Part shown: positions 6,369 through 27,680 of the stretch, in pieces
Numbering within the stretch: the first letter of the stretch is position 1
How the letters are laid out: each line of letters begins with the position of its first letter
Source of the DNA: Petrosia ficiformis
Taxonomy: Eukaryota > Porifera > Demospongiae > Haplosclerida > Petrosiidae
Reading direction: 5' to 3'
DNA: 64,000 nucleotides
Assembly: GCA_947044365.1 (NCBI GenBank)
Contig: OX345638.1
Location: 3,305,201-3,369,200 of the forward strand
Notes under the pieces: generated by a model
Databases searched by the model: none
What the model saw: only the letters and a program-made list of their open reading frames with translations
Told to the model about the DNA's origin: nothing
Made by a program: the position numbers and the translations under genes

Positions 6369-6376
6369 GACTCAGG
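6369..6376. repeat. Target-site duplication, left copy (gactcagg)
   Basis: The 8-bp word gactcagg abuts the left end of the element and recurs at 27673-27680. Removing the element and one copy restores a satellite sequence colinear with the empty paralogue at 5101-5200. The word is common in satellite 1, so identity alone would be weak evidence; the restored register is the stronger argument. An 8-bp duplication agrees with what has been reported for Zisupton elements. Confidence 0.75.
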
Positions 6377-6870
6377 AGGTATTACGATTGCCAAAACTTG
6401 GACAAGGACCGGAATCAATGACCCCCGTTCTAAATACTCGATCGATACTATTACGGCATTACCTTCGAATTATTAAAAGTAGTACAATTGTGTGGAGTTT
6501 GTAATCTGGTTGATGATTGTGGTTGGTAGCTGCATCCTTCACCAGTCTTAAGAGAAGAATGTAGGTCACATGATTACACTGTTGTATTCTAATATATAAT
6601 TATATGGATAACAACAGCAATTCAAAATATATTTCGTGATTGCAATTATAACAACCTTCTGTTAATTCCCTATGTTGCTGACAAATGTAATAATGTACAG
6701 TTGTGTTATATAATCAGATTCTTCTATAGTGACCCTGTTCTATTGTGTTCTTAATTAATCCATTGAAATCAATATAGTTAACAAGTGTATTACAAAGTTG
6801 GGTCGAACAGTCAGATTCTGGAATAACGACCCTATTCTGTTCTGTTCTAAGTTATTGATTCCCGCCCTTC
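6377..6870 (+). repeat. Left terminal inverted repeat, non-array part
   Basis: About 490 bp matches the reverse complement of 27180-27671. Visible differences are few: gatactatt against gataccatt, a short insertion in the right copy near 27560-27580, and two single-base changes (gtttgtaatc/gttcgtaatc and tatagtgaccc/tataatgaccc). Such low divergence suggests a recent insertion or gene conversion between ends. The inner part already carries the first palindrome-type motif, near 6802-6834. Confidence 0.9.
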
Positions 6871-9800
6871 ATCATTTCAAATAATTCTAGTGATGTTTCA
6901 TTCACACTCGCAAACATATTTGAATTTAATTTCCTATATTTGTAATAGAATTTGTGTCGGGTCGTATAATTAGAATCTGGTGTAATGACCCTGTTCTGTT
7001 CTGTTCTTACTACAAGTTATTGATTGTAACCTATTAAAATTAATATCATTGTAGTAATGCTTTATTCACTATCACAAAGAAATTTGAAATTAATTTTCAA
7101 TATTGTTAACAGCTATAGTACAAAGTTGGGTCGAACAATGAGGTTTTGGTATAATGACCCTATTCTTTTGTGTTCATTAATTCAAAGTTACAGATTCCCA
7201 CCCTTCATCATTTCACATCATTCTAGTGATGTTTTATTCACAGTCGCAAAGAAATTTGAATTTAATTTCCTATTTTTGTAATAGAAAGTTTTGTCGGGTC
7301 GTATAATTAGAATCTGGTGTAATGACCCTGTTCTATTCTGTTCTTACTACAAGTTATTGATTGTAACCTATTGAAATTAATATCATTCTAGTAATGCTTT
7401 ATTCACAATCATAAAGCAATTTGAATTTAATTTCCTGTATTGTTAACAAATGTAATAGAATTTGCGTTGGGTCGTATAATTAGAATCTGGTATAACGACC
7501 CTATTCTTTTGTGTTCATTAATTCAAAGTTATTGATTCCCACCAAAGATTTGCTGGGTCGTATAATTAGAATCTGGTGTAATGACCCTGTTCTGTTCTGT
7601 TCTTACTACAAGTTATTGATTGTAACCTATTGAAATTAATATCATTCTAGTAATGCTTTATTCACAATCATAAAGCAATTTGAATTTAATTTCCTGTATT
7701 GTTAACAAATGTAATAGAATTTGCGTTGGGTCGTATAATTAGAATCTGGTATAACGACCCTATTCTTTTGTGTTGATTAATTCAAAGTTATTGATTCCCA
7801 CCAAAGTTTTGCTGTGTCGTATAATTAGAATCTGGTGTAATGACCCTGTTCTGTTCTGTTCTTACTACAAGTTATTGATTGTAACCTATTGAAATTAATA
7901 TCATTCTAGTAATGCTTTATTCACAATCATAAAGCAATTTGAATTTAATTTCCTGTATTGTTAACAAATGTAATAGAATTTGCGTTGGGTCGTATAATTA
8001 GAATCTGGTATAACGACCCTATTCTTTTGTATTCATTAATTCAAAGTTATTGATTCCCACCCTTCATCATTTCACATAATTCTAGTGATGTTTCATTCAC
8101 ACTCACAAAGAAATTTGAATTTAATTTCCTATATTTGTAATAGAATTTGTGTCGGGTCGTATAATTAGAATCTGGTGTAATGACCCTGTTCTATTCTGTT
8201 CTTACTACAAGTTATTGATTGTAACCTATTGAAATTAATATCATTCTAGTAATGCTTTATTCACAATCATAAAGCAATTTGAATTTAATTTCCTGTATTG
8301 TTAACAAATGTAATAGAATTTGCGTTGGGTCGTATAATTAGAATCTGGTATAACGACCCTATTCTTTTGTATTCATTAATTCAAAGTTATTGATTCCCAC
8401 CCTTCATCATTTCACATAATTCTAGTGATGTTTCATTCACACTCACAAAGAAATTTGAATTTAATTTCCTATATTTGTAATAGAATTTGTGTCGGGTCGT
8501 ATAATTAGAATCTGGTGTAATGACCCTGTTCTATTCTGTTCTTACTACAAGTTATTGATTGTAACCTATTGAAATTAATATCATTCTAGTAATGCTTTAT
8601 TCACAATCATAAAGCAATTTGAATTTAATTTCCTGTATTGTTAACAAATGTAATAGAATTTGCGTTGGGTCGTATAATTAGAATCTGGTATAACGACCCT
8701 ATTTTTTTGTATTCATTAATTCAAAGTTATTGATTCCCACCCTTCATCATTTCACATATTTCTAGTGATGTTTCATTCACACTCACAAAGAAATTTGAAT
8801 TTAATTTCCTATATTTGTAATAGAATTTGTGTCGGGTCGTATAATTAGAATCTGGTGTAATGACCCTGTTCTATTCTGTTCTTACTACAAGTTATTGATT
8901 GTAACCTATTGAAATTAATATCATTCTAGTAATGCTTTATTCACAATCATAAAGCAATTTGAATTTAATTTCCTGTATTGTTAACAAATGTAATAGAATT
9001 TGCGTTGGGTCGTATAATTAGAATCTGGTATAACGACCCTATTCTTTTGTATTCATTAATTCAAAGTTATTGATTCCCACCCTTCATCATTTCACATAAT
9101 TCTAGTGATGTTTCATTCACACTCACAAAGAAATTTGAATTTAATTTCCTATATTTGTAATAGAATTTGTGTCGGGTCGTATAATTAGAATCTGGTGTAA
9201 TGACCCTGTTCTATTCTGTTCTTACTACAAGTTATTGATTGTAACCTATTGAAATTAATATCATTCTAGTAATGCTTTATTCACAATCATAAAGCAATTT
9301 GAATTTAATTTCCTGTATTGTTAACAAATGTAATAGAATTTGCGTTGGGTCGTATAATTAGAATCTGGTATAACGACCCTATTCTTTTGTATTCATTAAT
9401 TCAAAGTTATTGATTCCCACCCTTCATCATTTCACATAATTCTAGTGATGTTTCATTCACACTCACAAAGAAATTTGAATTTAATTTCCTATATTTGTAA
9501 TAGAATTTGTGTCGGGTCGTATAATTAGAATCTGGTGTAATGACCCTGTTCTATTCTGTTCTTACTACAAGTTATTGATTGTAACCTATTGAAATTAATA
9601 TCATTCTAGTAATGCTTTATTCACAATCATAAAGCAATTTGAATTTAATTTCCTGTATTGTTAACAAATGTAATAGAATTTGCGTTGGGTCGTATAATTA
9701 GAATCTGGTATAACGACCCTATTCTTTTGTATTCATTAATTCAAAGTTATTGATTCCCACCCTTCATCATTTCACATAATTCTAGTGATGTTTCATTCAC

Positions 9801-12800
9801 ACTCACAAAGAAATTTGAATTTAATTTCCTATATTTGTAATAGAATTTGTGTCGGGTCGTATAATTAGAATCTGGTGTAATGACCCTGTTCTATTCTGTT
9901 CTTACTACTAGTTATTGATTGTAACCTATTGAAATTAATATCATTCTAGTAATGCTTTATTCACAATCATAAAGCAATTTGAATTTAATTTCCTGTATTG
10001 TTAACAAATGTAATAGAATTTGCGTTGGGTCGTATAATTAGAATCTGGTATAACGACCCTATTTTTTTGTATTCATTAATTCAAAGTTATTGATTCCCAC
10101 CCTTCATCATTTCACATATTTCTAGTGATGTTTCATTCACACTCACAAAGAAATTTGAATTTAATTTCCTATATTTGTAATAGAATTTGTGTCGGGTCGT
10201 ATAATTAGAATCTGGTGTAATGACCCTGTTCTATTCTGTTCTTACTACAAGTTATTGATTGTAACCTATTGAAATTAATATCATTCTAGTAATGCTTTAT
10301 TCACAATCATAAAGCAATTTGAATTTAATTTCCTGTATTGTTAACAAATGTAATAGAATTTGCGTTGGGTCGTATAATTAGAATCTGGTATAACGACCCT
10401 ATTCTTTTGTATTCATTAATTCAAAGTTATTGATTCCCACCCTTCATCATTTCACATAATTCTAGTGATGTTTCATTCACACTCACAAAGAAATTTGAAT
10501 TTAATTTCCTATATTTGTAATAGAATTTGTGTCGGGTCGTATAATTAGAATCTGGTGTAATGACCCTGTTCTATTCTGTTCTTACTACAAGTTATTGATT
10601 GTAACCTATTGAAATTAATATCATTCTAGTAATGCTTTATTCACAATCATAAAGCAATTTGAATTTAATTTCCTGTATTGTTAACAAATGTAATAGAATT
10701 TGCGTTGGGTCGTATAAATAGAATCTGGTATAACGACCCTATTCTTTTGTATTCATTAATTCAAAGTTATTGATTCCCACCCTTCATCATTTCACATAAT
10801 TCTAGTGATGTTTCATTCACACTCACAAAGAAATTTGAATTTAATTTCCTATATTTGTAATAGAATTTGTGTCGGGTCGTATAATTAGAATCTGGTATAA
10901 CGACCCTATTCTTTTGTGTTGATTAATTCAAAGTTATTGATTCCCACCAAAGTTTTGCTGGGTCGTATAATTAGAATCTGGTGTAATGACCCTGTTCTGT
11001 TCTGTTCTTACTACAAGTTATTGATTGTAACCTATTGAAATTAATATCATTCTAGTAATGCTTTATTCACAATCATAAAGCAATTTGAATTTAATTTCCT
11101 GTATTGTTAACAAATGTAATAGAATTTGTGTTGGGTCGTATAATTAGAATCTGGTATAACGACCCTATTCTTTTGTGTTCATTAATTCAAAGTTATTGAT
11201 TCCCACCAAAGTTTTGCTGGGTCGTATAATTAGAATCTGGTGTAATGACCCTGTTCTGTTCTGTTCTTACTACAAGTTATTGATTGTAACCTATTGAAAT
11301 TAATATCATTCTAGTAATGCTTTATTCACAATCATAAAGCAATTTGAATTTAATTTCCTGTATTGTTAACAAATGTAATAGAATTTGCGTTGGGTCGTAT
11401 AATTAGAATCTGGTATAACGACCCTATTCTTTTGTATTCATTACTTCAAAGTTATTGATTCCCACCCTTCATCATTTCACATAATTCTAGTGATGTTTCA
11501 TTCACACTCACAAAGAAATTTGAATTTAATTTCCTATATTTGTAATAGAATTTGTGTCGGGTCGTATAATTAGAATCTGGTGTAATGACCCTGTTCTATT
11601 CTGTTCTTACTACAAGTTATTGATTGTAACCTATTGAAATTAATATCATTCTAGTAATGCTTTATTCACAATCATAAAGCAATTTGAATTTAATTTCCTG
11701 TATTGTTAACAAATGTAATAGAATTTGCGTTGGGTCGTATAATTAGAATCTGGTATAACGACCCTATTCTTTTGTGTTGATTAATTCAAAGTTATTGATT
11801 CCCACCAAAGTTTTGCTGTGTCGTATAATTAGAATCTGGTGTAATGACCCTGTTCTGTTCTGTTCTTACTACAAGTTATTGATTGTAACCTATTGAAATT
11901 AATATCATTCTAGTAATGCTTTATTCACAATCATAAAGCAATTTGAATTTAATTTCCTGTATTGTTAACAAATGTAATAGAATTTGCGTTGGGTCGTATA
12001 ATTAGAATCTGGTATAACGACCCTATTCTTTTGTGTTGATTAATTCAAAGTTATTGATTCCCACCAAAGTTTTGCTGGGTCGTATAATTAGAATCTGGTG
12101 TAATGACCCTGTTCTGTTCTGTTCTTACTATAAGTTATTGATTGTAACCTATTGAAATTAATATCATTCTAGTAATGCTTTATTCACAATCATAAAGCAA
12201 TTTGAATTTAATTTCCTGTATTGTTAACAAATGTAATAGAATTTGCGTTGGGTCGTATAATTAGAATCTGGTATAACGACCCTATTCTTTTGTGTTCATT
12301 AATTCAAAGTTATTGATTCCCACCAAAGTTTTGCTGGGTCGTATAATTAGAATCTGGTGTAATGACCCTGTTCTGTTCTGTTCTTACTACAAGTTATTGA
12401 TTGTAACCTATTAAAATTAATATCATTGTAGTAATGCTTTATTCACTATCACAAAGAAATTTGAAATTAATTTTCAATATTGTTAACAGCTATAGTACAA
12501 AGTTGGGTCGAACAATGAGGTTTTGGTATAATGACCCTATTCTTTTGTGTTCATTAATTCAAAGTTACAGATTCCCACCCTTCATCATTTCACATCATTC
12601 TAGTGATGTTTTATTCACAGTCGCAAAGAAATTTGAATTTAATTTCATATATTTGTAATAGAAAGTTTTGTCGGGTCGTATAATTAGAATGTGGTGTAAT
12701 GACCCTGTTCTATTCTGTTCTTACTACAAGTTATTGATTGTAACCTATTGAAATTAATATCATTCTAGTAATGCTTTATTCACAATCATAAAGCAATTTT

Positions 12801-12906
12801 AATTTATTCGCCTGTATTGTTAACAAATATAATAGAATTTGTGTTGGGTCGTATAATTAGATTCTGGTATAACGACCCTATTCTTTTGTATTCATTAATT
12901 CAAAGT
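6871..12906 (+). repeat. Left subterminal repeat array (340-bp dimers and 259-bp variants)
   Basis: The array is built from two related monomers of roughly 165-175 bp. Each begins with a 33-bp motif with arms GGGTCGT...ACGACCC; one monomer reads tggtataacgaccc, the other tggtgtaatgaccc. The pair forms a dimer of exactly 340 bp: the motif starts repeat at 8161, 8501, 8841, 9181, 9521, 9861, 10201 and 10541. A shortened dimer of about 259 bp, with junction word ccaccaaagttttgctg, occurs at both ends of the array, for example near 7562-7821. A third variant (gttgggtcgaacaatgagg) sits near 7120 and 12500, close to both edges. Copies are nearly identical, so amplification or homogenisation is recent. 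The 74-codon frames at 7057 and 12434 are part of the repeat. Confidence 0.93.
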
Positions 12907-13074
12907 TATGCTGATGACATCGTGTTATATAAGCCATCGACTTCATCCTTTAGTCTCTCTAATCTGCAGCTAGACATATTTGCTACATTTGTATTTCTAA
13001 GTGGATCAAGATGAATGGCCTTATCATCATTTAAAAGAAGACCGAATCCCTTGTCATTTCGAATGGCATAAAAT
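12907..13074 (+). pseudogene. Degenerate LINE reverse-transcriptase fragment
   Basis: The subterminal array stops abruptly at 12906 and is followed by sequence encoding YADDIVLYKPS, the catalytic YADD box of a non-LTR retrotransposon reverse transcriptase. After a frameshift comes WIKMNGLIII, a stop, then KKTESLVISNG, which matches the usual region downstream of YADD (W.......GL..N..KTE). The coding frame is broken by at least one frameshift and one stop, so this is a relic. It was probably captured by the element rather than forming part of its machinery. No target duplication or poly(A) tail is seen. Confidence 0.75.
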
Positions 13075-13676
13075 ATTGTTAAAGAAACAAATGGCCATTA
13101 TTATATGAAAAATGGCATTTTTTTGCTTTCAATAATTTATATCTTGCAATATTTTCATTAGCTAGGTTGTATATATATGTTTAGGGTTGTAATCAATTGT
13201 ATCAAGAACATGTATACAGAACACACAATAGGGTCGTTAATCTCGTTATGCCAGAATCTGATAACATGACCCAACTTTGTATTGTTACATTTGTCAACAA
13301 TGTAGGAAATTATATTCAAACTCTTTGTGATAGTGAACTAGAATGATATTAAATGATAAAGGGGGGAGTAATGAATATATTAAGAATAGAAGAGAATAGG
13401 GTTGCTATTCTAGAATCTGATTACACAACCCAGTGTGATAACATTGGTTATTTAAAAATTAATTTGTATTATGAACTGAACAGAAAAGGATCATTATACC
13501 AGAATCTGATTATATGACTCACTTGTGTGTATCATTATATTTTTTCAACAATATAGGAAATTAAATTCAGACTGATATTTTTTGCTGTGAGCTGATTAGT
13601 GCAACAAGGCTCTATATAATTAAATTCATGATTAATATTTCTTTATTACCTGGTAGTTTGCCAGTCTGCAATTGAT
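13075..13676. other. AT-rich leader with diverged, opposite-orientation subterminal motifs
   Basis: No gene is seen. Three decayed copies of the subterminal motif occur in the orientation of the right-hand array, opposite to the adjacent left array: near 13232-13268 (agggtcgttaatc...atgaccc), 13397-13432 (agggttgctattc...caaccca) and 13487-13522 (aggatcattatacc...atgactc). The stretch just upstream of the transposase start should hold its promoter, but no specific element can be identified. Confidence 0.6.
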
Positions 13677-16600
13677 ATGGCTGAAGGTGACGGAAGAAAA
13701 CCAACTTCTAAAAAGGTTTTTTTTTACATTATTATCATAGATGTTAGTTATCTTTCCCCTCTTTGTAATATGTTAGAGGTGCCCTGCAGAACAAGAAATG
13801 TACCAATCTGTGTGGAAGAGTGTTCGTGATGCAGATGAAAGTAAATACAGCTTTTCATCAATGCAGTTGAAGCGCAAACGCCCTCTACGAGAACAGAAGG
13901 GTAAAATTAAACAAGAGATGAAAAAGTCTGGAATGCCAACCACAGAGCATAAGAGTGTCTCATTATTTGACATCTCACCAGGAGTCATTGAACCTGAAAT
14001 GTTGGAATCAGCTTCTTATTCGTATTCACAACAGGACTCAGGATCCTCAATTTGCATTGTAATGTCTTTTGTAGTGTTTTAAAAATAACATCATTATTAT
14101 TTTATTTTTATACAAGGGGTCAAGCATTGCCTGTGGCAACTCGGCATTGAGCAACTTAGAAATTTACATTCGAGAACTAAGGAATTGTCAAGCAGTGTCA
14201 CCTTGTGACAGCACATTGAAAACATTTGTTATACAAGACTGGAATGAGAGTACTCTTTCTCTAAAGGTAATTTGTCCAGACATTTATAACCAGTAGTTAG
14301 TGCACATTTATTTTTCCAAAATAAGCCTAGGAAATTTATTTTTGTAAAACGAACAGCCAAGGTGTTTACAGATGGCATTGAATGGGTTTACAGTTGCTCT
14401 TGCAACATTCACAATGCAAACCTTCTTGATGGTATGGGACACAACCCTGGGATTGAATACAGTGTCTTGCAGTCCATAGTTCCTGACTGCATACATATTG
14501 ATACTATGAGGAATATAGTAGTAGAAGTGGATGCAATTCATGATATACATCCTCAACTTGAGTTTTCAGGTAATTAAATCTCCATAATTGTTAACTTTCA
14601 TACCTTATATATATATATATAAATTTTTTTTTGTGTGTATAATTATACAGATCATACATATGCTGGTGTTGAAGTTGACCCAAAATGGGAGGTTAGTTAC
14701 AGATGGGATGCTTATTGCAGTAATTATTACCACATTCAAAAATTTGTCAAATTCTGTAGGTGCTTGACAAGGTTGCTGTTCTTCAAAATGGAGAATACAT
14801 ATGTGTATCTCTTGACAATAGTACTGGTGTTTTATATTGTGAAAAAGGAGTGATAAGATGTGCTACCTGTTATGATAAAACAGCCTGTTCTCATGTCACT
14901 TATATGAATGAGGTAATTGATGATCTTGACTCCTCTTCACCTGCTGAAGTCCTTTTGAGGACCTTTGTGGAGTCTTTGAATAGAACAATATCTGCTTCAC
15001 CATCTTGTAAATCACTTCTTTGTCAATCAACGAATAAAATTCCTTTTTCACTATCTGAAACTCAGAAAGCTATCTTCAATGAATCTGATACTGAGAGGTA
15101 TAACATCTCTGATGAAGACCACGATGCACATCTTATACCAGAATTGGATATGATCAGGCACTGCTCTCTCTGCAATGGTTGTAGTTGGAGTCCCCAGTAT
15201 ACACTAGAAAGAAAAAGCAATATTATTACATATAACAAGATTATTTCTGCAAGAGGTTTGGAGTGTATTTTAGTTTTTTTCAATAATAAAGTTATTTGTC
15301 TTACAATTACAGTGTACTGTTACACATGTTCGGAAGAACTATGCAAAGGGAAAATTGTGTTTGATGGCAACTCGAAATGTCTCCTTAATATGGGGCAATT
15401 TTTTATTGCGCATGAAGTGTTAAGATTATTTATGCACCATTTTCTTAATGGAAAGTAAATATTTTTATATATTGGTGTTTTATTTGTCAAATATGTCTGT
15501 ATATATTTTTTCCAGAACTACAATGTTTACTGAGTACACTGTTTTAAAGAAAATTCAAGAGGACAGTGGAAGCCATTTCTTTAGTTCTTTATTCACTTAT
15601 AATCACTTTCGTTTCAGCTGGTACAACTATTTATCTCTCTTGGACATTGACTATGGTGATGGTTTCAAATGCACTATATGTGGTGATCAACCAGAGACAG
15701 TGATAATGGATGCAACATCACTTGCATTCCGTCGGGAAGCAGATTCTTGGCATGAAGCACTGTTTCAACAGCAACAAGTTTCTGAAAAGAAAAGTGGAAG
15801 CAGGTGTATAATAATCAACATTTCAGTAATAGGTACATATTCATAACATTTAAATGTTTTTTTTTGTTTATTCTTCAGGTTTCGAGACCGGATTCTCATT
15901 CCTGACAAACAAACTCGCGAATGTCTAAAGAGCTTTGTGAAAAATGACACCAATAATATTGTTTCTCTGAAGCTTTTGATCTTAAAGAATGCTCCTTGTA
16001 TGATGAAGCTTCTTGAGTTTGTTGCAGTTCATGGTAGACTTACATCTGAATGGAGGGAGTTTGTTCTTGCTTTATCTACATCTTCACCAGTCTGTGCCCT
16101 TTTTCATCCTTCAGATAAGCTATTCTCTCTTTTACACAAAATTGCAGAGTTCGGTCCTCCAACTGATCTTAAGGACATGCAGTTTTTACAGTCCGAATGT
16201 CCAGTATTATTTAATGTATTTCGGCATAATAAAAACTTACCAAAGACCATTCTTAGTGATCTACTATTTGAAATAATTGCAAAGGCCAAAGCTCCATTCG
16301 TAGCTTCAACTGAAGAGTATCACTTGCCAACTTCAGTTCATGCTCCAAATGATGATATCGCTTTTTTCCCTTCACTACCAGTGGTTCGTCTAAGAGGGTC
16401 ATATCATTCCGATAATACAAAAAGGGATAAAATCTGCACTAAGCACACTATTGGCCACCCGTCTCTATTACCTGGAGTCTTTATTTTGTTTTGTAAACAT
16501 GGTTAGAGAATATAATGCTTAATTGCAGTAGGTTTATGATAGCATTTCTAGGTATATGCTATGGTTTTGAAGTCATGAGAGTGTGTGAATCCCCAAATAC

Positions 16601-17064
16601 TGCATTCACAACCCTTTTCACAAGATTCAGAAAAGGTTATTTTTAAAATTAATGTTTATTCAATTCAAGTACTTTTCTTACTTGTTTTAATTATAGGTCC
16701 TAATAACATCATATATGATAATGCATGCAATCTCCACAACTATTCCTTGAACAGAGAGCCAGACTTTTTTAAAACAACTTGGTTTCTTGTAGACAGATTC
16801 CATTGGAAAAATCATGCAGGTTACATTGTTGATGCATCCTTCAGCCATTAGTTGTCAGCTATATGTTTTATTTATACAGGTTGCAGTGTTGGATATAATA
16901 TGTCCTTATATCCTCAGTTCACTGAAATCAATAGTCAAATTGTTGAGCAGTGTAACTCAGTCTTGAAGAGGACAAAGTCTTCACTATCTTATATGACCAA
17001 AAAAAATTTTTTAGATCACTGTAAATTCATGCTCTGGTACAGGAACACAATGCAAAAGCCATAA
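13677..17064 (+). CDS. KDZ (Zisupton/HMGXB3-like) transposase, 12 exons, 889 aa
   Basis: Inferred exons: 13677-13715, 13777-14058, 14117-14266, 14362-14569, 14651-14691, 14760-15264, 15313-15454, 15516-15803, 15879-16501, 16552-16635, 16697-16819, 16880-17064. All introns are GT..AG (48-95 bp), all phases agree, and the joined frame has no stop. The N-terminus is basic (about 50-75). A Cys/His cluster resembling a SWIM finger lies at about 267-285 (C..C.....CSH), and CTICG near 508-512 precedes MDATSL (D521). The core has GHPSLLPGVF, IIYDNACNL (D795), VDRFHWKNH, CSVGYN and INSQIVEQCN (E851). D521/D795/E851 is my proposed catalytic triad; known KDZ transposases use a D-D-E arrangement. The first ATG is a best guess. 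The 48-bp intron at 15265-15312 keeps frame, so retention cannot be excluded. It converges with the fusion gene. Confidence 0.9.
14760..14907 (+). other. SWIM-like zinc cluster of the transposase
   Basis: Start of exon 6. It encodes VLYCEKGVIRCATCYDK followed by ACSHV: Cys267, Cys274, Cys277, Cys283 and His285 of the predicted protein. A C-x-C..C-x-H cluster ahead of the catalytic core is typical of KDZ transposases and of the HMGXB3 family. DNA or protein binding is the presumed role. The precise fold is inferred from cysteine spacing only. Confidence 0.6.
16697..17064 (+). other. C-terminal catalytic core of the KDZ transposase
   Basis: Exons 11 and 12 encode residues 788-889 with the most diagnostic family motifs: YDNACNLH (Asp795), LNREPDFF, DRFHWKNH, CSVGYN, and NSQIVEQCN (Glu851) followed by SLSYM. 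The HxxxH...C pattern after the second Asp is typical of KDZ proteins. All key residues appear intact. Confidence 0.85.
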
Positions 17065-18489
17065 CATACAGTTGAAAATATTGTCGACAAACTTGATCTC
17101 TCATATAGTTAAGTAAGTGTTATTTTGTAAAACTTTGCACTTTCTTTGTGTACATATATTATGTATAATTGGAATAGACTAATTGAAGCACAATTATAAT
17201 CACAATTATTGGTATATAATTACTATCTATACATCATTATTAATAAGTGAGTTTAGCTAATATATTCCTCAAGAATTTGAAATAATTATAAAGACAATTT
17301 CTATTTAGTACAATTTAGTGATTTTCCCTGTTCAAAAATATATGTACAATTATAAAATTATATAATTATATATATTCATAATATATGAGACTTTCTAAGT
17401 GACAGTGTGGGGATATAGGAGATGGTAGATGAGGAATTAAATATATTTATAGTCTTTGAACAATTGTTGTTAGCTAGGTGGAGCCACCAAGAAAGGTGGT
17501 CAGATTAGCATCTGAGCTGGTATCAGAGGGAATATATATTAAATTTGGAAAATAGATAGCAACTCTTGCTGACATCTATATATTTGCAAAAAGATTTTTA
17601 ACCATAAAACAAGATGCATAGGAACCAAGTGTGGCACATTGAGGAGGGAAAAGTGTGGAATGGAGTCAACAGTCTTCTGAATATCAAAAATACAACGCAG
17701 ATACCTTGTTGAGATTAAAGCAGATTCGGTATAGAGAGCCCAGAGTAGAAAACGAATTGACATTTAGGAGAAGCTATTAATAGTATTGCAACAGTTACAT
17801 TGCTATGAAGGGTTTGGAGTATAGATGATTCTGAGTTTCCTACAGATCGACTTCAGAGAAGAGTTAGAAAGGCCATTAAGTTAAGCAGATTTCTGGTGGG
17901 ATAGATAAAATATATTGTTTCAGTCTATATATATACATAATCCACAGTGTAAGTAAAAAGATTGATGAACTGGGATTTTGGGGGATTGATATACTCAAAT
18001 GGATAGTTAGATTCACTAGCTAATTTCTTCAAAGATATAGTCCAGGAATAAAAAAAATATCATTAGGGGAGAAGAGGGAATATTAAATCTCATGGAACGT
18101 ATGGTAGAAAATCACAAAGTGCACAGCCAGATTTAAATTTTTATTTAATCTAGCAGCACAACTAAGTATGGAAGAAAATTACAGGGATTCTAAAGAAATT
18201 AGCTATATTCTTATTACATAGATTGCTGATCATGGGGTACATAACAAGGAAATCACCTGTGTTTACTGTATATACAATAATAATGTTATGGACTGTATAT
18301 GTCAAGTTATTTTACCTTATGTGCTCATCTTTAATTTATCAGCTTCTGTAAATCAGTTGTTATTGCAACAAAATATGATTTAACATTAAAGAAATCTCAA
18401 TTTGTGATGTTTGAGGAAACATCACTACAAAAAAAAACTGATAAATACTAAGCACATTATTTTGTAGCTATTATAATTATATAGTGAAT
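17065..18489. other. Spacer between the convergent genes
   Basis: About 1.4 kb of AT-rich DNA with no convincing gene on either strand. It contains the LINE relic listed separately (17460-17800). The 3' untranslated regions of both genes must lie here. No clear AATAAA is seen within 100 bp after the transposase stop. Confidence 0.6.
17460..17800 (-). pseudogene. Second LINE reverse-transcriptase relic
   Basis: On the minus strand the frame 17763-17539 reads LRCIFDIQKTVDSIPHFSLL then LVLWLKIFLQIYRCQQ. This matches the reverse-transcriptase block FFDLKKAFDSVPH..LL and the later L.W...YL..R.QQ motif of non-LTR elements. Flanking frames continue the similarity only with frameshifts and stops. 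It lacks any intact domain, so it is a relic within the transposon, possibly of the same lineage as the fragment at 12907. Confidence 0.55.
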
Positions 18490-18495
18490 TTTATT
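18490..18495 (-). promoter_or_regulatory. Candidate poly(A) signal of the fusion gene
   Basis: AATAAA on the minus strand, about 53 nt past the stop codon at 18549-18551, is at a suitable distance for 3' end formation. Chance occurrence is easy in AT-rich DNA. Confidence 0.45.
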
Positions 18496-18548
18496 AACAA
18501 AATATGCAAATGTGAAGGCCTTATAGAAAACAATAAGTCATGGTCAAG

Positions 18549-18995
18549 TTAAGATAGGAGCCAAAGGTTCTCTTGTAGTACTTTTCTTCTTCTTTCACCA
18601 TAAGAGTATAATAACTCATCCCCAATTTCAATCTTCTTTTTTGCAAAAAAACAAAGATGTGGCTGTCCGTGTACTTCAATAATCCTTGTAGTTAGGTTAT
18701 CTTTAGCTAAAGAATGATTAATTAACCTACCAATCCTGTTGGACTCTTTAGTAGCATCAATACTGTCAAAACATGACATGAATATTGAAAATAATGATGT
18801 TTATTCTTACCACCATCCTTTTGCATTATGATGGAAAAAATACAAAAAGCTTCCTATTGATTCGTCATATTCCATTTCCCTTCTTTTTCCATCATTGAAA
18901 GTAATCAGTTCACCAACATACTCACATACAAATTCACTGGGAGCATAAGCACGCCTAGTTATAATGCCCCTCCCTTTTTCTGGGACTACTGTTAC
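18549..18995 (-). other. KMT5A/SET8-like SET domain
   Basis: Exons 26-27, residues 837-968. It starts with PEKGRGIITRRAYAPSEFV and CEYVGELI. IDATKESNRIGRLINHS (N913, H914) is the cofactor-binding core, followed by HLCFFAKKKIEIGDELLYSYG with the catalytic-site tyrosines at 950/952. The exact order, DATxExNRxGRLINHS then G.PHL and ELLYxYGxR, is closest to KMT5A, which monomethylates H4K20. There is no post-SET cysteine cluster, also like KMT5A. Target specificity is inferred. Confidence 0.88.
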
Positions 18996-21900
18996 CTTTG
19001 TTTGAATAAACATGTGATACAGGTAAGATATTAATAACAAACGTAATTATAATTGTGGCATTACATACCTCAAGAAATGATTCATCACCGACAAGTATTT
19101 TATCAATAGTGTCTTGGTATTCCTCATTCTACAATATGCAAACACTAAGTAATTATACTACTTTCATATACATTGCTCACACCTTTTTATCCTTGGTTGT
19201 TTTTCTTCTTGACTTTGATGTTACAATGTCTTTATTAAGCCTGTTAATTAATAATCATGCTGTTCATGCTTTAGTATTGTTTTATTAAGCATACTTTGAC
19301 TGGAAATACATTTCTGAATGATCATGGCAATGCTTCAGAAGTAATGCTCTTGTCTCAATTGGACTTTGCCAATGTTCAGAGATGGATGTTTCAAGGTATT
19401 TTGCAAGTATGGGTTTGTCAGGTGAGTGTTGTAGCTTAGGTAAAAACAGAGTAGAACAAAAACATCATGCATTTATGAAGTTTCTTACTGAAAACAGAAT
19501 ATTCATGTTCTGTATTATATGAATTCCACAGTCAGAACCAGATTGGTGAGGAACCTGTAAGTCCAACAAACAATTAAAAAATAATTTCTTAATAAAAAAC
19601 TACTTACTCTAATCTGTTCAGCTCTTAATGTAACCTTTTTGTTCAAAATAGCAGAAAAGAATTTTTCTACAGTGTTAATTGTATCCTTGTGAAAAGATGT
19701 TGAACAATTTAAAGAATCCAGTATAAGAATCCTTGAATATAATAATTATTAAGATGATTATTATGTGTGTATCACAGCGAACCTGTTTTCATTTAGAATG
19801 ACAATGACTAATATCCAGTGCCACGAAGACCTGTATATATGAGATGAAATAGACACAAGCAGGAAAGTTAACATTTTTATACTCACTCTACTTTACATGG
19901 AAGGACTACTGTTTTCCCATCTAAAGAACAGGAATTGTTCAATGACCTGTGAAATCGACTCATCTCTTGACATGCTTGTAACCAGTTAAGTTTTCGTGCA
20001 TAGCAAATAGAAGAGAAGGTTTGAGCACTAAGTGGAATTATCCATTTGCTTGATGGTAATAATGTACTGACCATGCAGACACAGGGAGAGTTTATTAGAA
20101 ACACCAACTGATTATATATCTATATCTCACCAGATATAAAAGTCAATGATAGCATCAGAAATCCCATTACCTGGTAAGAGTGAGTACACATCCATTGGCA
20201 TGATTCCAACTGATCTCACAGTTTCATACTTTGTGCAATTCCTAATCAAACAACTAGAATAAAAGCTTTGTATGCAAGACCTCTTGTGGAAATATTAAAT
20301 CAACGTACATGGGCTCCGCTGCATTTTTGTCTTTGTCACAGCACAAGAAATTGTTTCCTTTTTCAAAGTAATGAGAGCAAACACCAACACAAGAACAGTG
20401 ATACCAACCATAACACTGTTGACACTGTACCCAAGTCGTTAACATTTCTTTGCTTAATTTACAATTTGTAAATTTCCCCATTAAACAGATTTCACTGAAA
20501 TCATCAAAATTGATTAACTTGCATTTCAGGGGAGGCTTAGTACGATCTATGTGGAAAAGAAAACATTATCTTGTGTGATTACATGTATTGTATCCATACC
20601 TGAAGCTGGAATCAATGGAACTACAGTTTCCTCTTTTATCCACATGATGGTCAGAGGCTGCTGCTGAACACCACTCATTGAGGAATGGCATGGATGGATT
20701 ATTGTGTTATGGATAGGACTTTGGCTATCCTCATTCCACTGGCAAAGAGGTCTGTTAATAGCACCAGCTAAAAACAAAAGTTGGAAGTATCCTGCAATAT
20801 AATGAGACAATTAAGAAATTGCAGCAATTTAGCTGCTAATAACCTGTATGAGATTCCACTCTGCATAATTGCTGAAGCTGGCTCTTAACAGCAAAGGATA
20901 GAGTGTCCTTGACAGAAGGTAGGAATTTAGGTCTTTGCTCAAAATCTGCAACATGTATGGTGTTACATAAAAACTGCACTGCTAAACCAGGATCATCAAT
21001 TTTTGATATCAGCTATTTCGTTAAAAAGAATAACGTGTCTGTGATATCATATATAATTCAACAGCAAATGCTAACTTCATCTAAGATATCTTGAAAGTGA
21101 GTAATACCATATATCACAGAAGAAAACTTCAATAAATCAACTAGTGTTTGATCACCATTGCCTAGCATTTTGGTCATACTTGTAAACAGGGAATTACCAT
21201 CTGATGGAATACAAAAGACCTTATACCCAGTTGGAATTATAGGGTTGAGTATCTTCTGACGACTAAAGAATTAATTATAGTGTATTTAAGGTAAAAACTT
21301 CCAAATGCTTACACAATATCCTGTTCAATAGCAGGCAACTGTCTTGCCGAGACAGGAGTCAAGCCCTTGAGTATTTGAAGATCATTTTCTATAGCTTTTG
21401 CATGATCAAGAGCCCTTGCACAGAAGCTTTCCCAATCTAGAGTAGTGGCACACCTTTCTAGATCACTTAGTACCAATGTAGCTGACATCTTTAATAAAGA
21501 TTGTAGCAATCATCATAATAAGATATTGTTGTACAGACCTTTTGCTTTTCAATGGTAGTGTTCACATTGCTCATTTCTTCTGACAATATTAATATGCTGG
21601 GTACTAGAATGCATCTTAACTAAAGCTCTCTATTAAAGCTATGCTTACCAGTTAGGCTTTCTTCTTCACTATGGATGCTATCACCTAAATCTGCTACTAA
21701 AATGATGATCATCAAATCATAATATATTTAAAAATTACCTTCATCCATTTGTAGTAGCTCTTCATCAATATGATTGTGACTTCCTATATCCTATTATACA
21801 GCTTTATAAGCCAATACATTTATGGGACCTATAATTACCTCTTCATTTACAATATCATTAACTGCTGATTGTACACCATTTCTATAAAATTGAAAAACAA

Positions 21901-22845
21901 TCAAGCACACTGACATTCATACAATAATGGCATAACTATACATGTACATTGTGAAGCAGTCAGGACAGTGTTCCATGAAACTTGAGAGTACTTCTCTCAT
22001 TTCTCCTGAGGTCATTTTACTGATTTTGATGTCTATATAAATGTATCAAACTAGGATTCAATATCTATTACAACATATAAACAGCAGTGCCTTTAATTCT
22101 AGGATTATTCGGGCTTTTAAAAGACACTGATTTAGGCCACCAGTTTGGCCTGTTAATGTCATTTCCCCAAAATCCTCTTTTCCCTGTTTAAAATTTAAAG
22201 CGTAATGGCACCAACATATTATTGTAGTTCTGACCTTCTGGGTTACATATTTTTGGCAAAACCTTGCAGAGTGTATCCTTGCGCCAATCACTTGGATTGG
22301 CAGAAAAAAGATCAATTTTTTTCTTCTCTTCTGCTGCTTCAAGTACCAAAACTGTAAATATTTTCTGATATAAATGCTCATATTTATCTTACATTCACTA
22401 GTTTCTTGTTGAACCAAGACTTTGGAGACTTCTAAGTTATGATGAATGGAAAATCATGAATTCACAATCAGCAAACCAGAGTTTTTACCTGGGACAGATC
22501 GACCATATGCTGCCTCATAAAATTTATTTTGTACTTCTTTATCCTTTACAAATTGTTCCATGTGTTTTGGCACTGAAGTCATAAAAGCACAGGAGTATAT
22601 AAGAAGGAGGTTTACAGACATACTGATATGTATTTACCAACATATACAATAGCATCCCTTTGACCACGCTTACGATCCAAATACAATATTGCAAAACTAG
22701 GCTCATTAGGTTTAGTCTTGTCTACCCACTTTTGAGCCTACAATTCATACACACAATTAATCGACCTCAAACAATTATAAGAAAACTCTCATACCCTGAG
22801 TTTTAAGGATCTCCAGTTTCTGATGTTAGCTCTACTACTGATCAT
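18549..22845 (-). CDS. OTU-like / PHD-like / Ulp1 protease / SET fusion protein, 27 exons, 968 aa
   Basis: Inferred exons (descending): 22845-22795, 22737-22638, 22572-22489, 22431-22393, 22351-22235, 22183-22091, 22032-21948, 21881-21839, 21790-21739, 21696-21649, 21603-21539, 21488-21313, 21262-21118, 21080-21035, 20978-20844, 20791-20600, 20546-20309, 20253-20131, 20066-19887, 19830-19783, 19731-19608, 19554-19489, 19434-19295, 19240-19183, 19128-19069, 18995-18811, 18762-18549. Phases agree at every junction and there is no internal stop. Introns are 37-73 bp, all GT..AG except 22090-22033 (GC..AG). Order: unassigned N-terminus with NRPNWWPKSVSF (about 1-317), OTU-like (about 328-488), PHD-like finger (529-562), Ulp1/C48 protease (about 590-750), basic linker, SET (837-968). 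It may edit SUMO or ubiquitin-like marks and methylate histones; this is inference. A split into two genes, with the SET part separate, is possible but no stop or gap demands it. Confidence 0.83.
19489..20253 (-). other. Ulp1/SENP-like (C48) cysteine protease domain
   Basis: Exons 18-22. LLPGNGISDAIIDFYI matches the Ulp1 start (WL.D..I..Y), then KWIIPLS. The catalytic His is in SSWHWILVIV (His675), Asp in ILILDSL (Asp692), the oxyanion Gln in HQSGSDCG (Gln732) and the nucleophile Cys737 in the same motif. All four key residues are present, so activity on SUMO or a related modifier is plausible. Ulp1-type proteases are found in several DNA-transposon groups. Confidence 0.85.
20309..20546 (-). 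other. PHD-like zinc finger
   Basis: Exon 17 encodes residues 491-570 with WVQCQQCYGWYHCSCVG followed by C.H..F and FLCC. This C..C....WYH..CVG pattern is that of a PHD finger second half (W at 529, Cys532, Cys535, His540, Cys543, Cys559/560). Earlier cysteines (C499, C511, C519) could complete the cluster. PHD fingers usually bind histone tails. A degenerate or short PHD is possible because the first metal pair is not in the standard spacing. Confidence 0.65.
20600..21262 (-). other. OTU-like domain, apparently catalytically dead
   Basis: Residues 328-488. PTGYKVFCIPSDGNSLF has the OTU signature IP.DGNCLF with Ser342 in the position of the catalytic Cys. Downstream, MKLAFAVELY fits the OTU helix with E-L. 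The end reads PLTIMWIKEETVVPLIP, where active OTU proteases have a His directly before FVPL; here TVVPL has none. OTU proteases remove ubiquitin. Loss of both residues suggests a binding or scaffold role. The 37-bp intron at 21117-21081 is the shortest in the model and affects this domain. Confidence 0.65.
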
Positions 22846-23739
22846 TTTGAAGAAACCAAACCTTTTTAATTATATATAAACTTAATGAGTAATAAAATTA
22901 ATAAGAAATGCATATTGAAAAAGATGTAATCACAGATACATAATTATAGTGGCTACATAAATCTGAAACAATGTTCATAAAAATCTGTCAGTCCATTTTC
23001 TACTGCAGTGTTGTTTTGAAATACCAAACCTAAAATTGAAGTAAGGATAAAAGGTCTTTGTACACTAAAATTAAACCAATACTGTTTCGTAGTTCTACAA
23101 AACCACATGTCAACTAGAACACTATGCACTCATAAAGTTAACATTTATATGCATAAAAATCAACTAAGAGTGTTATAGTAGGAACAATTTAGGTAATAAC
23201 ACATTGAAGAAATTACTAAAGTGTCATTAATTTTAATGCTTCAAACAATAAAATTGTTATTGGCAATACTGTTAGTCCTCTTGAGCTTGTAGAATACTAC
23301 AATTAAAAACATAAAATCATAATTATTATACCCTATACTAAAACTAAAAGAAATCTGAGACAGCTAGTAAAATGATAACTAAAACTAAAACAGATTTTGA
23401 TACTAATACAATTATCACGCAGCTCAGCTTCCAACTGTAGAAAGTTTCTTCCAAAATTCTACGAAACACTAAATACCTGGATTGCATATACAAAATATAT
23501 ATAATATAATATAAATAATATACTATTATAATTATCATACAATGTATACTATTCCATGTGGTACTTAGTCCATTGATTTAATTGCAGTAGAATCAACTAT
23601 AATATTTCTTCTGCAGGATTGGTTTGCAATAAATAAGAACAAAAGAGAATAGAGTTGTAATACTGAGACGCCATGTGCTTACATTGAATACTAACATGAA
23701 ATAAAATTCAATTTCATTTGTCATAATTGAAGAAATAAC
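22846..23739. other. 5' flank of the fusion gene, no gene seen
   Basis: AT-rich DNA between the start codon of the fusion gene and the right array. Only short chance frames occur, such as a Leu/Ile/Val/Tyr-rich one at 23344-23538. Faint decayed subterminal motifs appear from about 23630 (aaaagagaatagagttgt). The promoter must be here, but nothing specific is recognisable. Confidence 0.55.
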
Positions 23740-26700
23740 TAGACTGATATTAATTTTCAATTGGTTACAATTAATAACTTCAATTAAGAACAGAACAGAA
23801 CAGGGTCTTTACACCAGATTCTAATTATACGACCTGACAAAACTTTCTATTACAAATATAGGAAATTAAATTCAAATATCTTTGCGACTGTGAATGAAAC
23901 ATCACTAGAATGATGTGAAATGATGAAGGGTGGGAAACAATAACTTTGATTAAGGACACAAAAGAATAGGGTCGTTATACCAGATTCTAATTATACGACC
24001 TGACAAAACTTTTTTTACAAATATAGGAAATTAAATTCAAATTTCTTTGCGACTGTGAATGAAACATCACTAGAATTATGTGAAATGATGAAGGGTGGGA
24101 ATCAATAACTTTGAATTAATGAATACAAAAGAATAGGGTCGTTATACCAGATTCTATTTATACGACCCAACGCAAATTCTATTACATTTGTTAACAATAC
24201 AGGAAATTAAATTCAAATTGCTTTATGATTGTGAATAAAGCATTACTAGAATGATATTAATTTCAATAGGTTACAATCAATAACTTGTAGTAAGAACAGA
24301 ATAGAACAGGGTCATTACACCAGATTCTAATTATACGACCCGACACAAATTCTATTACAAATATAGGAAATTAAATTCAAATTTCTTTGTGAGTGTGAAT
24401 GAAACATCACTAGAATTATGTGAAATGATGAAGGGTGGGAATCAATAACTTTGAAGTAATGAATACAAAAGAATAGGGTCGTTATACCAGATTCTAATTA
24501 TACGACCCAACGCAAATTCTATTACATTTGTTAACAATACAGGAAATTAAATTCAAATTGCTTTATGATTGTGAATAAAGCATTACTAGAATGATATTAA
24601 TTTCAATAGGTTACAATCAATAACTTGTAGTAAGAACAGAACAGAACAGGGTCATTACACCAGATTCTAATTATACGACCCAGCAAAACTTTGGTGGGAA
24701 TCAATAACTTTGAATTAATGAACACAAAAGAATAGGGTCGTTATACCAAAAGCTCATTGTTCGACCCAACTTTGTATTATACCTAGCTGTTAACAACATT
24801 GAAAATTAATTTCAAATTTGTTTGTGATACTGAATAATACATCACTAGATTAATATTAATTTTCAATTGGTTACAATCAATAACTTGTAGTAAGAACAGA
24901 ACAGAACAGGGTCATTACACCAGATTCTAATTATACGACCCGACAAAACTTTCTATTACAAAAATAGGAAAATAAATTCAAATTTCTTTGCGACTGTGAA
25001 TAAAACATCACTAGAATGATGTGAAATGATGAAGGGTGGGAATCCATAACTTTGAATTAATGAACACAAAAGAATAGGGTTGTTATACCAAAACCTCATT
25101 GTTCGACCCAACTTTGTAGTATAGCTGTTAACAATATTGAAAATTAATTTCAAATTTCTTTGTGATAGTGAATAAAGCATTACTACAATGATATTAATTT
25201 CAATAGGTTACAATCAATAACTTGTAGTAAGAACAGAACAGAACAGGGTCATTACACCAGATTCTAATTATACGACCCGACACAAATTCTATTACAAATA
25301 TAGGAAATTAAATTCAAATATGTTTGCGAGTGTGAATGAAACATCACTAGAATGATGTGAAATGATGAAGGGTGGGAATCAATAACTTTGAATTAATGAA
25401 TACAAAAGAATAGGGTCGTTATACCAGATTCTAATTATACGACCCAACGCAAATTCTATTACATTTGTTAACAATACAGGAAATTAAATTCAAATTGCTT
25501 TATGATTGTGAATAAAGCATTACTAGAATGATATTAATTTCAATAGGTTACAATCAATAACTTGTAGTAAGAACAGAACAGAACAGGGTCATTACACCAG
25601 ATTCTAATTATACGACCCAGCAAAACTTTGGTGGGAATCAATAACTTTGAATTAATCAACACAAAAGAATAGGGTCGTTATACCAGATTCTAATTATACG
25701 ACCCAACGCAAATTCTATTACATTTGTTAACAATACAGGAAATTAAATTCAAATTGCTTTATGATTGTGAATAAAGCATTACTAGAATGATATTAATTTC
25801 AATAGGTTACAATCAATAACTTGTAGTAAGAACAGAACAGAACAGAACAGGGTCATTACACCAGATTCTAATTATACGACCCAGCAAAACTTTGGTGGGA
25901 ATCAATAACTTTGAATTAATCAACACAAAAGAATAGGGTCGTTATACCAGATTCTAATTATACGACCCAACGCAAATTCTATTACATTTGTTAACAATAC
26001 AGGAAATTAAATTCAAATTGCTTTATGATTGTGAATAAAGCATTACTAGAATGATATTAATTTCAATAGGTTACAATCAATAACTTGTAGTAAGAACAGA
26101 ATAGAACAGGGTCATTACACCAGATTCTAATTATACGACCCGACACAAATTCTATTACAAATATAGGAAATTAAATTCAAATTTCTTTGTGAGTGTGAAT
26201 GAAACATCACTAGAATTATGTGAAATGATGAAGGGTGGGAATCAATAACTTTGAATTAATGAATACAAAAGAATAGGGTCGTTATACCAGATTCTAATTA
26301 TACGACCCAACACAAATTCTATTACATTTGTTAACAATACAGGAAATTAAATTCAAATTGCTTTATGATTGTGAATAAAGCATTACTAGAATGATATTAA
26401 TTTCAATAGGTTACAATCAATAACTTGTAGTAAGAACAGAACAGAACAGGGTCATTACACCAGATTCTAATTATACGACCCAGCAAAACTTTGGTGGGAA
26501 TCAATAACTTTGAATTAATGAACACAAAAGAATAGGGTCGTTATACCAAAAGCTCATTGTTCGACCCAACTTTGTATTATACCTAGCTGTTAACAACATT
26601 GAAAATTAATTTCAAATTTGTTTGTGATACTGAATAATACATCACTAGATTAATATTAATTTTCAATTGGTTACAATCAATAACTTGTAGTAAGAACAGA

Positions 26701-27179
26701 ACAGAACAGGGTCATTACACCAGATTCTAATTATACGACCCGACAAAACTTTCTATTACAAAAATAGGAAATTAAATTCAAATTTTTTTGCGACTGTGAA
26801 TAAAACATCACTAGAATGATGTGAAATGATGAAGGGTGGGAATCCATAACTTTGAATTAATGAACACAAAAGAATAGGGTCGTTATACCAAAACCTCATT
26901 GTTCGACCCAACTTTGTAGTATAGCTGTTAACAATATTGAAAATTAATTTCAAATTTCTTTGTGATAGTGAATAAAGCATTACTACAATGATATTAATTT
27001 CAATAGGTTACAATCAATAACTTGTAGTAAGAACAGAACAGAACAGGGTCATTACACCAGATTCTAATTATACGACCCGACACAAATTCTATTACAAATA
27101 TAGGAAATTAAATTCAAATATGTTTGCGAGTGTGAATGAAACATCACTAGAATTATGTGAAATGATGAAGGGTGGGAAT
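23740..27179 (-). repeat. Right subterminal repeat array
   Basis: Inverted counterpart of the left array. It carries the same monomers and the same third variant (gttcgacccaac with caaaacctcattg), at about 24956-25180 and 26756-26980. Diverged versions of that variant lie near 24740 and 26540. Both the 340-bp dimer and the 259-bp short dimer are present. It is about 3.4 kb against 6 kb on the left, so copy number differs between ends. An interior stretch of about 1.8 kb is repeated (24650-25220 resembles 26450-27020). Confidence 0.92.
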
Positions 27180-27672
27180 CAATAACTTAGAACAGAACAG
27201 AATAGGGTCGTTATTCCAGAATCTGACTGTTCGACCCAACTTTGTAATACACTTGTTAACTATATTGATTTCAATGGATTAATTAAGAACACAATAGAAC
27301 AGGGTCATTATAGAAGAATCTGATTATATAACACAACTGTACATTATTACATTTGTCAGCAACATAGGGAATTAACAGAAGGTTGTTATAATTGCAATCA
27401 CGAAATATATTTTGAATTGCTGTTGTTATCCATATAATTATATATTAGAATACAACAGTGTAATCATGTGACCTACATTCTTCTCTTAAGACTGGTGAAG
27501 GATGCAGCTACCAACCACAATCATCAACCAGATTACGAACTCCACACAATTGTACTACTTTTAATATTTCGAACTAAATTCGAAGGTAATGCCGTAATGG
27601 TATCGATCGAGTATTTAGAACGGGGGTCATTGATTCCGGTCCTTGTCCAAGTTTTGGCAATCGTAATACCTG
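27180..27672 (-). repeat. Right terminal inverted repeat, non-array part
   Basis: Reverse complement of 6377-6870 with few differences. The final base 27672 (g) is not matched at the left end. The frame starting at 27468 merely runs from this repeat into the satellite. Confidence 0.9.
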
Positions 27673-27680
27673 GACTCAGG
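27673..27680. repeat. Target-site duplication, right copy (gactcagg)
   Basis: Identical to 6369-6376, and continuous with satellite 1 on its right. Confidence 0.75.

Follow-up and report, generated by a model that had tools for sequence, protein, structure and literature searches.

A KDZ-type DNA transposon of the sponge Petrosia ficiformis with a second gene that joins OTU-like, PHD-like and Ulp1-like parts to a KMT5A-like SET domain

A mobile element of 21,295 bp lies in a 64,000-nucleotide stretch of DNA from the sponge Petrosia ficiformis (assembly GCA_947044365.1, contig OX345638.1, positions 3,305,201 to 3,369,200), which was analysed as a whole and is called the window below. The element is a two-gene DNA transposon of KDZ type. 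Gene 1 encodes the transposase, and gene 2, convergent to it, encodes one polypeptide in which an N-terminal domain, an OTU-like domain, a PHD-like zinc finger, a Ulp1-like protease domain and a SET domain resembling that of the histone methyltransferase KMT5A follow one another. We put at about 0.8 the probability that this anatomy is right and that gene 2 has an accessory role in the spread of the element itself; what its protein would do is read from its parts. In the window, gene 2 is arranged as follows.

18549..22845, minus strand: gene 2 (26 exons, 982 residues), with N-domain, OTU-like, PHD-like, Ulp1-like and KMT5A-like SET parts in one frame
21942..22845, minus strand, exons 1-7: N-terminal domain of unassigned fold, conserved among relatives, with NPxG and WxP motifs
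20600..21262, minus strand, exons 13-15: OTU-like domain, with Ser346 in place of the catalytic Cys and Thr496 in place of the His
20309..20546, minus strand, exon 16: PHD-like zinc finger; Cys546, Cys549, His554, Cys557, Cys573 and Cys574 are invariant in five subfamily representatives
19489..20253, minus strand, exons 17-21: Ulp1/Peptidase_C48 domain, with H689, D706, Q746 and C751
19069..19434, minus strand, exons 22-24: linker between Ulp1 and SET, with introns at residues 764, 811, 830 and 850 common to the relative L039
18549..18995, minus strand, exons 25-26: KMT5A/SET8-like SET domain and stop codon, identified by Pfam SET and PDB matches

The 25 introns of gene 2 measure 41-73 nt, all are GT-AG with consistent phases, and the joined frame contains no stop. 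A sequence-only reading of the window had placed the gene at these same coordinates, correctly, and had described a single open, phase-consistent frame. The frame stands, but its counts of 27 exons and 968 residues give way to 26 and 982, and the Ulp1 residues reported as H675, D692, Q732 and C737, all of them present, are renumbered by +14. The two SET motifs it named, NRIGRLINHS and ELLYSYG, are found at residues 920 and 961. Our model was built one exon at a time and compared with the relatives. An alternative from a splice optimiser (24 exons, 992 residues) was rejected, as it read through introns that are evident from the relatives.

Four Pfam families had been proposed for checking. Two score above their cut-offs in gene 2, SET with 65.8 bits (cut-off 22.4) and Peptidase_C48 with 34.2 bits (cut-off 20.7), but PHD stays below its cut-off and OTU has no match in the window copy. 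The expected KMT5A-like character of the SET domain was borne out by a PDB search, in which the top matches are KMT5A/SETD8 chains (best 1.2e-34); a profile of the five subfamilies described below matches KMT5A/SETD8 at 1.7e-59. Peptidase_C48 is listed for all five subfamily representatives. So is PHD, at E-values up to 5 (best 4e-4), and no score above the Pfam cut-off of 24 bits was seen for it (8.3 bits in the window copy, 20.8 in L039). The finger is termed PHD-like because it falls below this cut-off while its likely zinc ligands are conserved in the five representatives. OTU is matched by one of five full-length representatives (0.024) and by three of five OTU-region sequences (best 0.0023, not that of the window), and a profile of the region finds OTUD1 at 0.0013 and OTUD5 at 0.027. 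The PHD and OTU labels are best taken as putative assignments made through the relatives only, although in this way the OTU-like part named by the earlier reading is recognised.

Gene 2 had been called a transposon gene, and its surroundings agree, as it stands beside a KDZ-type transposase within a bounded mobile element that has target duplications. The element is laid out as follows.

6377..27671 (21,295 bp), no strand assigned: whole element, with termini AGGTATTACG...CGTAATACCT, within a satellite of 29-bp period
6369..6375, plus strand: left target site duplication GACTCAG; an extra G at 6376 precedes the terminal A
27673..27679, plus strand: right target site duplication GACTCAG, with an extra G at 27672
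6377..13640 (inner limit approximate), plus strand: left terminal inverted arm, mostly tandem units of ~170/340 bp with a GGGTCG...GACCC motif
23730..27671 (inner limit approximate), minus strand: right terminal inverted arm, the array of the left arm in inverted orientation
13677..17064, plus strand: KDZ-type transposase gene (gene 1), an 11-exon model of 917 residues, whose relatives L039 and L043 are above the Pfam KDZ cut-off

The ends of the element match each other in inverted order. The 23-base core of the arms, GGGTCGTATAATTAGAATCTGGT, has 32 exact copies on the left, all in plus orientation, and 15 on the right, all in minus orientation; a scan of the whole window found no exact copy between the arms or outside the element. 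A genome search with the 150 bases of the terminus gave 11 matches, of which two are partial. Of the four copies that have both ends, three show exact 7-bp duplications at an identical offset, each of its own sequence (GACTCAG, CTTGAGT and CGAGGGG), next to the termini AGGTATTACG and CGTAATACCT, and three more ends stand singly. Mobility is thus documented by three copies at separate sites, each with its own exact duplication. In each of them a single base separates duplication and terminus and is the same on both sides (G, C and G, at L053/L058, L054/L057 and L059/L060); it may belong to the chemistry of cleavage or be a coincidence. The fourth two-ended copy (L061/L063, C7:1717125-1718630), where no exact target duplication was found, carries both termini on 1.5 kb, which is too short for the genes, and is a non-autonomous derivative. 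The flanking satellite of 29-bp period, with a core of GACTCATGAG type, lies before 6377 and from 27672 to at least 40000, with a GC content of ~46%, against 29-35% in the element.

Relatives were sought in the same assembly (191,215,263 bases, 29 contigs) with parts of gene 2, with human KMT5A and with the transposase as queries, and 14 loci of 8.3-10 kb each, not every match, were fetched. A search for similar fusions beside other KDZ transposases, as suggested by the earlier reading, was rewarded within this one genome: in 11 of the 14 loci (L039-L044 and L046-L050), N-domain, OTU, PHD, Ulp1 and SET run in one direction with a convergent transposase downstream, some parts of the diverged loci being assigned by spliced alignment rather than by tblastn. 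In at least seven further loci, matches to SET and to the transposase lie near each other but on opposite strands (for instance, C12:3128 kb, C1:390 kb, C1:1,805 kb, C1:62,504 kb and C1:50,239 kb). A tree of gene 2 without its SET part separates subfamilies A (window, L040, L041), B (L039), C (L042, L043, L047), D (L044, L046, L049) and E (L048, L050). These are 29-47% identical to the window copy, with L039 at 48%. Within subfamily A, L040 agrees with the window in 975 of 982 residues, has the same 25 introns and is open throughout, and L041, at another site, has three frameshifts. L044 is open across its modelled part, and L047 has an eroded Ulp1 part. The presence of the four-part join in five diverged subfamilies suggests a durable tool of the element, not an accident in a single copy.

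Intron positions argue strongly that gene 2 is one gene. The 25 introns of the window copy were compared with those of four diverged relatives, counting as a match the same phase within one residue. L039 shares 19, L043 13, L044 10 and L048 11. In 5000 random draws per relative the mean number of matches was 0.43-0.60 and the maximum 4-5 (for L039, 0.6 and 5). Since such positions are common to diverged relatives, the fused gene would be spliced as one unit and would predate the subfamilies. The claim that these domain types are joined in one polypeptide is raised above chance by this agreement with L039 and by the open frame of L040.

Over 942 codons, identity between the window and L039 is 0.61, 0.73 and 0.40 at the three positions; amino acids have thus been kept while silent sites became saturated. 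The SET domain is the best-conserved part of this pair, with 61% identity as against 34-50% elsewhere and the lowest dN (0.258). Five pairs within subfamilies C, D and E have a dN/dS of 0.45-0.71, and for L043 and L048 the ratio is 0.22 at a dS of 2.7. SET residues N927, H928, S929, Y964 and Y966 are invariant in all five representatives. In KMT5A, product specificity is set by the first of the two active-site tyrosines, which restricts the enzyme to monomethylation. The Ulp1 Asp and Cys are likewise present in all five, the Ulp1 His is kept in A, C, D and E, and the Gln is found in A, B, C and E and in one of two models of D. The catalytic Cys and His of OTU are present in B, C and E and replaced in A, with D ambiguous. 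In an ancestor, OTU probably still looked intact; the lineage of the window appears to have lost this state while keeping Ulp1, and B appears to have kept it, with a changed Ulp1 His.

The SET domain has a counterpart outside the element. L045 contains only a SET part, whose introns measure 302 and 612 nt; other parts of gene 2 were not matched in the 4.4 kb upstream, nor was a transposase. It is probably the KMT5A gene of the host, and is taken as such because of its long introns and the absence of element parts, not because of score, the top single-frame match of human KMT5A in the genome being an element copy (L042 region). L045 and the element SETs have introns 850/0 and 912/2, perhaps also 830/0, in common; 850/0 occurs in A, B and D, and 912/2 in 11 of 11 relatives. 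Since the probable host gene shares these introns, it is likely that the SET was captured from KMT5A genomic DNA together with its introns. Identity to L045 is 68% for C, 60% for E, 52% for human KMT5A and 46-49% for A, B and D, and in the SET tree L045 groups with C and E (87/95, not starred). A sponge origin of SET therefore has good support just in C and E, clearly in C, and is less sure for the subfamily of the window. A separate set of SET matches, 25 of the 71 in the genome, has one common E-value and a 162-residue open frame (seen in L007). They lie on 11 contigs within ~90 kb of a contig end, as judged for C10 and C15 from published lengths, often 8,218 bases apart (L007, L008; C5:14175, 22393, 30750 and 38968), and represent a repeated subtelomeric unit containing a SET-domain frame.

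Three other accounts of this anatomy have to be weighed. Two genes, OTU-PHD-Ulp1 and a separate KMT5A-like gene downstream, might have been wrongly read as one: SET comes last and could be driven by a promoter of its own, the SETs of the subfamilies vary in nearness to the host-like SET, and in C to E fewer of the four linker introns coincide with those of the window. Nevertheless, the linker exons are in frame and splice-consistent, introns 764/0, 811/2, 830/0 and 850/0 are common to the window and L039, and the 73 linker codons, 38% identical in this pair, have positional identities of 0.56, 0.64 and 0.33. Together with the same domain order in the 11 loci, this makes the two-gene account very improbable. 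It is unlikely, too, that SET is a passenger, a chance host fragment without function for the element. DNA transposons do capture gene pieces, and the window subfamily lacks an excess of silent changes, but a passenger would hardly be present in all five diverged subfamilies with its catalytic residues unchanged, nor be the best-conserved part between the window and L039. Least probable of all, and very nearly dismissed here, is that gene 2 is a host gene derived from a transposon, as is SETMAR, in which a SET domain and a transposase form a host gene (PMC9062482, PMC12062965). Against this, gene 2 is enclosed by inverted termini that are flanked by target duplications, recurs as separate copies at several sites, and faces a transposase that is a separate, open and convergent gene.

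Several observations weigh against a single functional, element-borne fusion gene. Nine of the 11 relatives show stops or frameshifts in their spliced gene 2 alignments. L051 (C1:33198001-33207000), of B type, keeps N-domain, OTU and transposase parts but ends after OTU, so that PHD, Ulp1 and SET are missing (its model has three frameshifts and two stops), and at L052, where a transposase is present, no gene 2 match was found in the 6.9 kb downstream. In the window copy both catalytic OTU residues are replaced and catalysis appears lost; the domain looks dead, and 'protease' would there be an ancestral label. The Ulp1 His is Tyr in B. Subfamily A shows no sign of constraint since its last moves, although the counts are tiny: silent against amino-acid changes number 1 to 8 for the window and L040, 1 to 13 for the window and L041, and 1 to 13 for L040 and L041. 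As to SET, the window domain is 46% identical to L045, which is below the value for human KMT5A, and the join of element and host SETs is weakly supported (68/85). Holding all element SETs together without L045 is rejected at a p-AU of 0.032. A single capture is thereby mildly rejected by the tree, for which long branches are a plausible cause, and repeated capture or replacement of SET is possible. Finally, taken by itself, the transposase of the window matches nothing in Pfam.

That transposase has a SWIM-like zinc motif and a D...DNACN...H...H...E core, both assigned by eye. Pfam KDZ (PF18758, cut-off 26.6 bits) is matched by three of five aligned transposase members, with 29.7 bits in L039 and 30.3 in L043; L048 has no match. 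Since L039 matches Pfam KDZ and its transposase shares 57% identity with that of the window, the KDZ-type label is sound, at family level only and by way of relatives. A genome search with PF18758 returned other loci, the window element not being among them. Four of its matches, at C1:14518805, 14548280, 14578055 and 14606918, are ~29 kb apart and perhaps represent a tandem array of another KDZ family. No relative was found when prokaryote contigs and viral contigs were scanned, once each, with the transposase alignment.

Silencing of transposons in animals relies heavily on SUMO. In the role that we propose, the finger and the N-domain would bring the gene 2 protein to chromatin, Ulp1 would remove SUMO or a related modifier, and SET would place a single methyl group on nucleosomal H4K20, at the element itself or at its target. 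Overall this would most likely help expression and movement of the element: SUMO-dependent silencing would be lifted, or an H4K20 mark would be set that promotes repair of the breaks left by transposition. That the chromatin step used is relief of silencing we hold tentatively, at rather less than even odds. Coupling to repair or to the cell cycle is also possible, if somewhat doubtful: H4K20 methylation would draw end-joining factors of the 53BP1 type to the excision gap. SETD8 is described as controlling 53BP1 recruitment at damage, its own level being set by ubiquitin-dependent degradation (PMC9406528), and as the only known H4K20 monomethylase of mammalian cells (PMC8897848). Either relief of silencing or repair of breaks would pay for gene 2, and the evidence does not choose between them. 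Unlikely, but worth stating, is a protein that protects itself, with OTU and Ulp1 stripping ubiquitin or SUMO from the gene 2 protein or from silencing factors on the element. Host KMT5A would be low in part of the cell cycle through ubiquitin-dependent degradation, and the element could then mark its own DNA with H4K20 methylation when the host enzyme cannot, so that excision and repair would be coupled to replication and silencing would be blocked.

Each domain type of gene 2 has precedents in transposons. The element resembles the KDZ group (Kyakuja, Dileera, Zisupton) in its transposase family, as judged from Pfam KDZ in relatives, and in its short target duplications, given as 8 bp for Zisupton and a Dileera family and 7 bp for two Kyakuja families (PMC12730594). 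These two Kyakuja families are described as without inverted repeats, whereas the window element combines a 7-bp duplication with long inverted arms. Fungal KDZ transposons carry a TET/JBP epigenetic enzyme beside the transposase (PMC12730594), and an F-box accompanies Zisupton in fish (PMC12062965). The fungal case is alike in that the transposase is accompanied by an accessory gene encoding an epigenetic enzyme, but the accessory protein is there a DNA dioxygenase and here, in an animal host, a fusion of histone methyltransferase and protease. SET histone methyltransferase genes are known from HarbingerS and SET-bearing MuDR transposons of Phytophthora (PMC12730594), and a Phytophthora Helentron has a Clr4-like SET of about 153 residues in a separate reading frame (PMC4067079). 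These transposons belong to other transposase classes and are set apart here by their descriptions, not their sequences; because of the KDZ and KMT5A matches, descent of the window element from any of them is unlikely. Ginger1 is likewise an animal DNA transposon using OTU, Ulp1 and PHD modules, but has them in the C-terminus of the transposase itself, and no family listed in Table 1 of PMC2836005 has both OTU and Ulp1. The wording 'SET domain' is absent from that paper.

Among single proteins, KMT5A/SET8/PR-Set7 resembles gene 2 in its SET sequence and C-terminal tail, its NHS motif and the tyrosines corresponding to Y964 and Y966, but in gene 2 a protease and a finger of transposon type precede SET. 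SETMAR (Metnase) also joins a SET methyltransferase to transposon matter; there, a host gene is fused to a mariner transposase, while here SET is fused to the accessory protein of a mobile element. The sequence-only reading knew of no such fusion. The combination of OTU, PHD, Ulp1 and SET in one polypeptide, or such a fusion in a KDZ setting, was indeed not found described in the literature, among the matches listed, nor was a KMT5A-type SET in a transposon, but its novelty is narrowed by the transposons already known to bear SET or OTU, Ulp1 and PHD. Protein searches of 5.8 billion sequences gave 7, 0 and 5 matches, with SET in each and no Ulp1 or PHD among their Pfam domains; these searches are weak, as the one with 0 matches missed KMT5A proteins that another found, and absence elsewhere is not established by them.

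If our reading is correct, an animal DNA transposon took up a methyltransferase of the KMT5A type, joined it to protease and reader modules, and kept the join in five diverged subfamilies. As both kinds of activity would reside in one polypeptide, the element may offer a testable handle on why transposons carry SUMO and ubiquitin proteases and chromatin enzymes. Natural losses of single parts accompany it, namely the dead-looking OTU of the window copy, the altered Ulp1 His of L039, and the missing PHD, Ulp1 and SET of L051.

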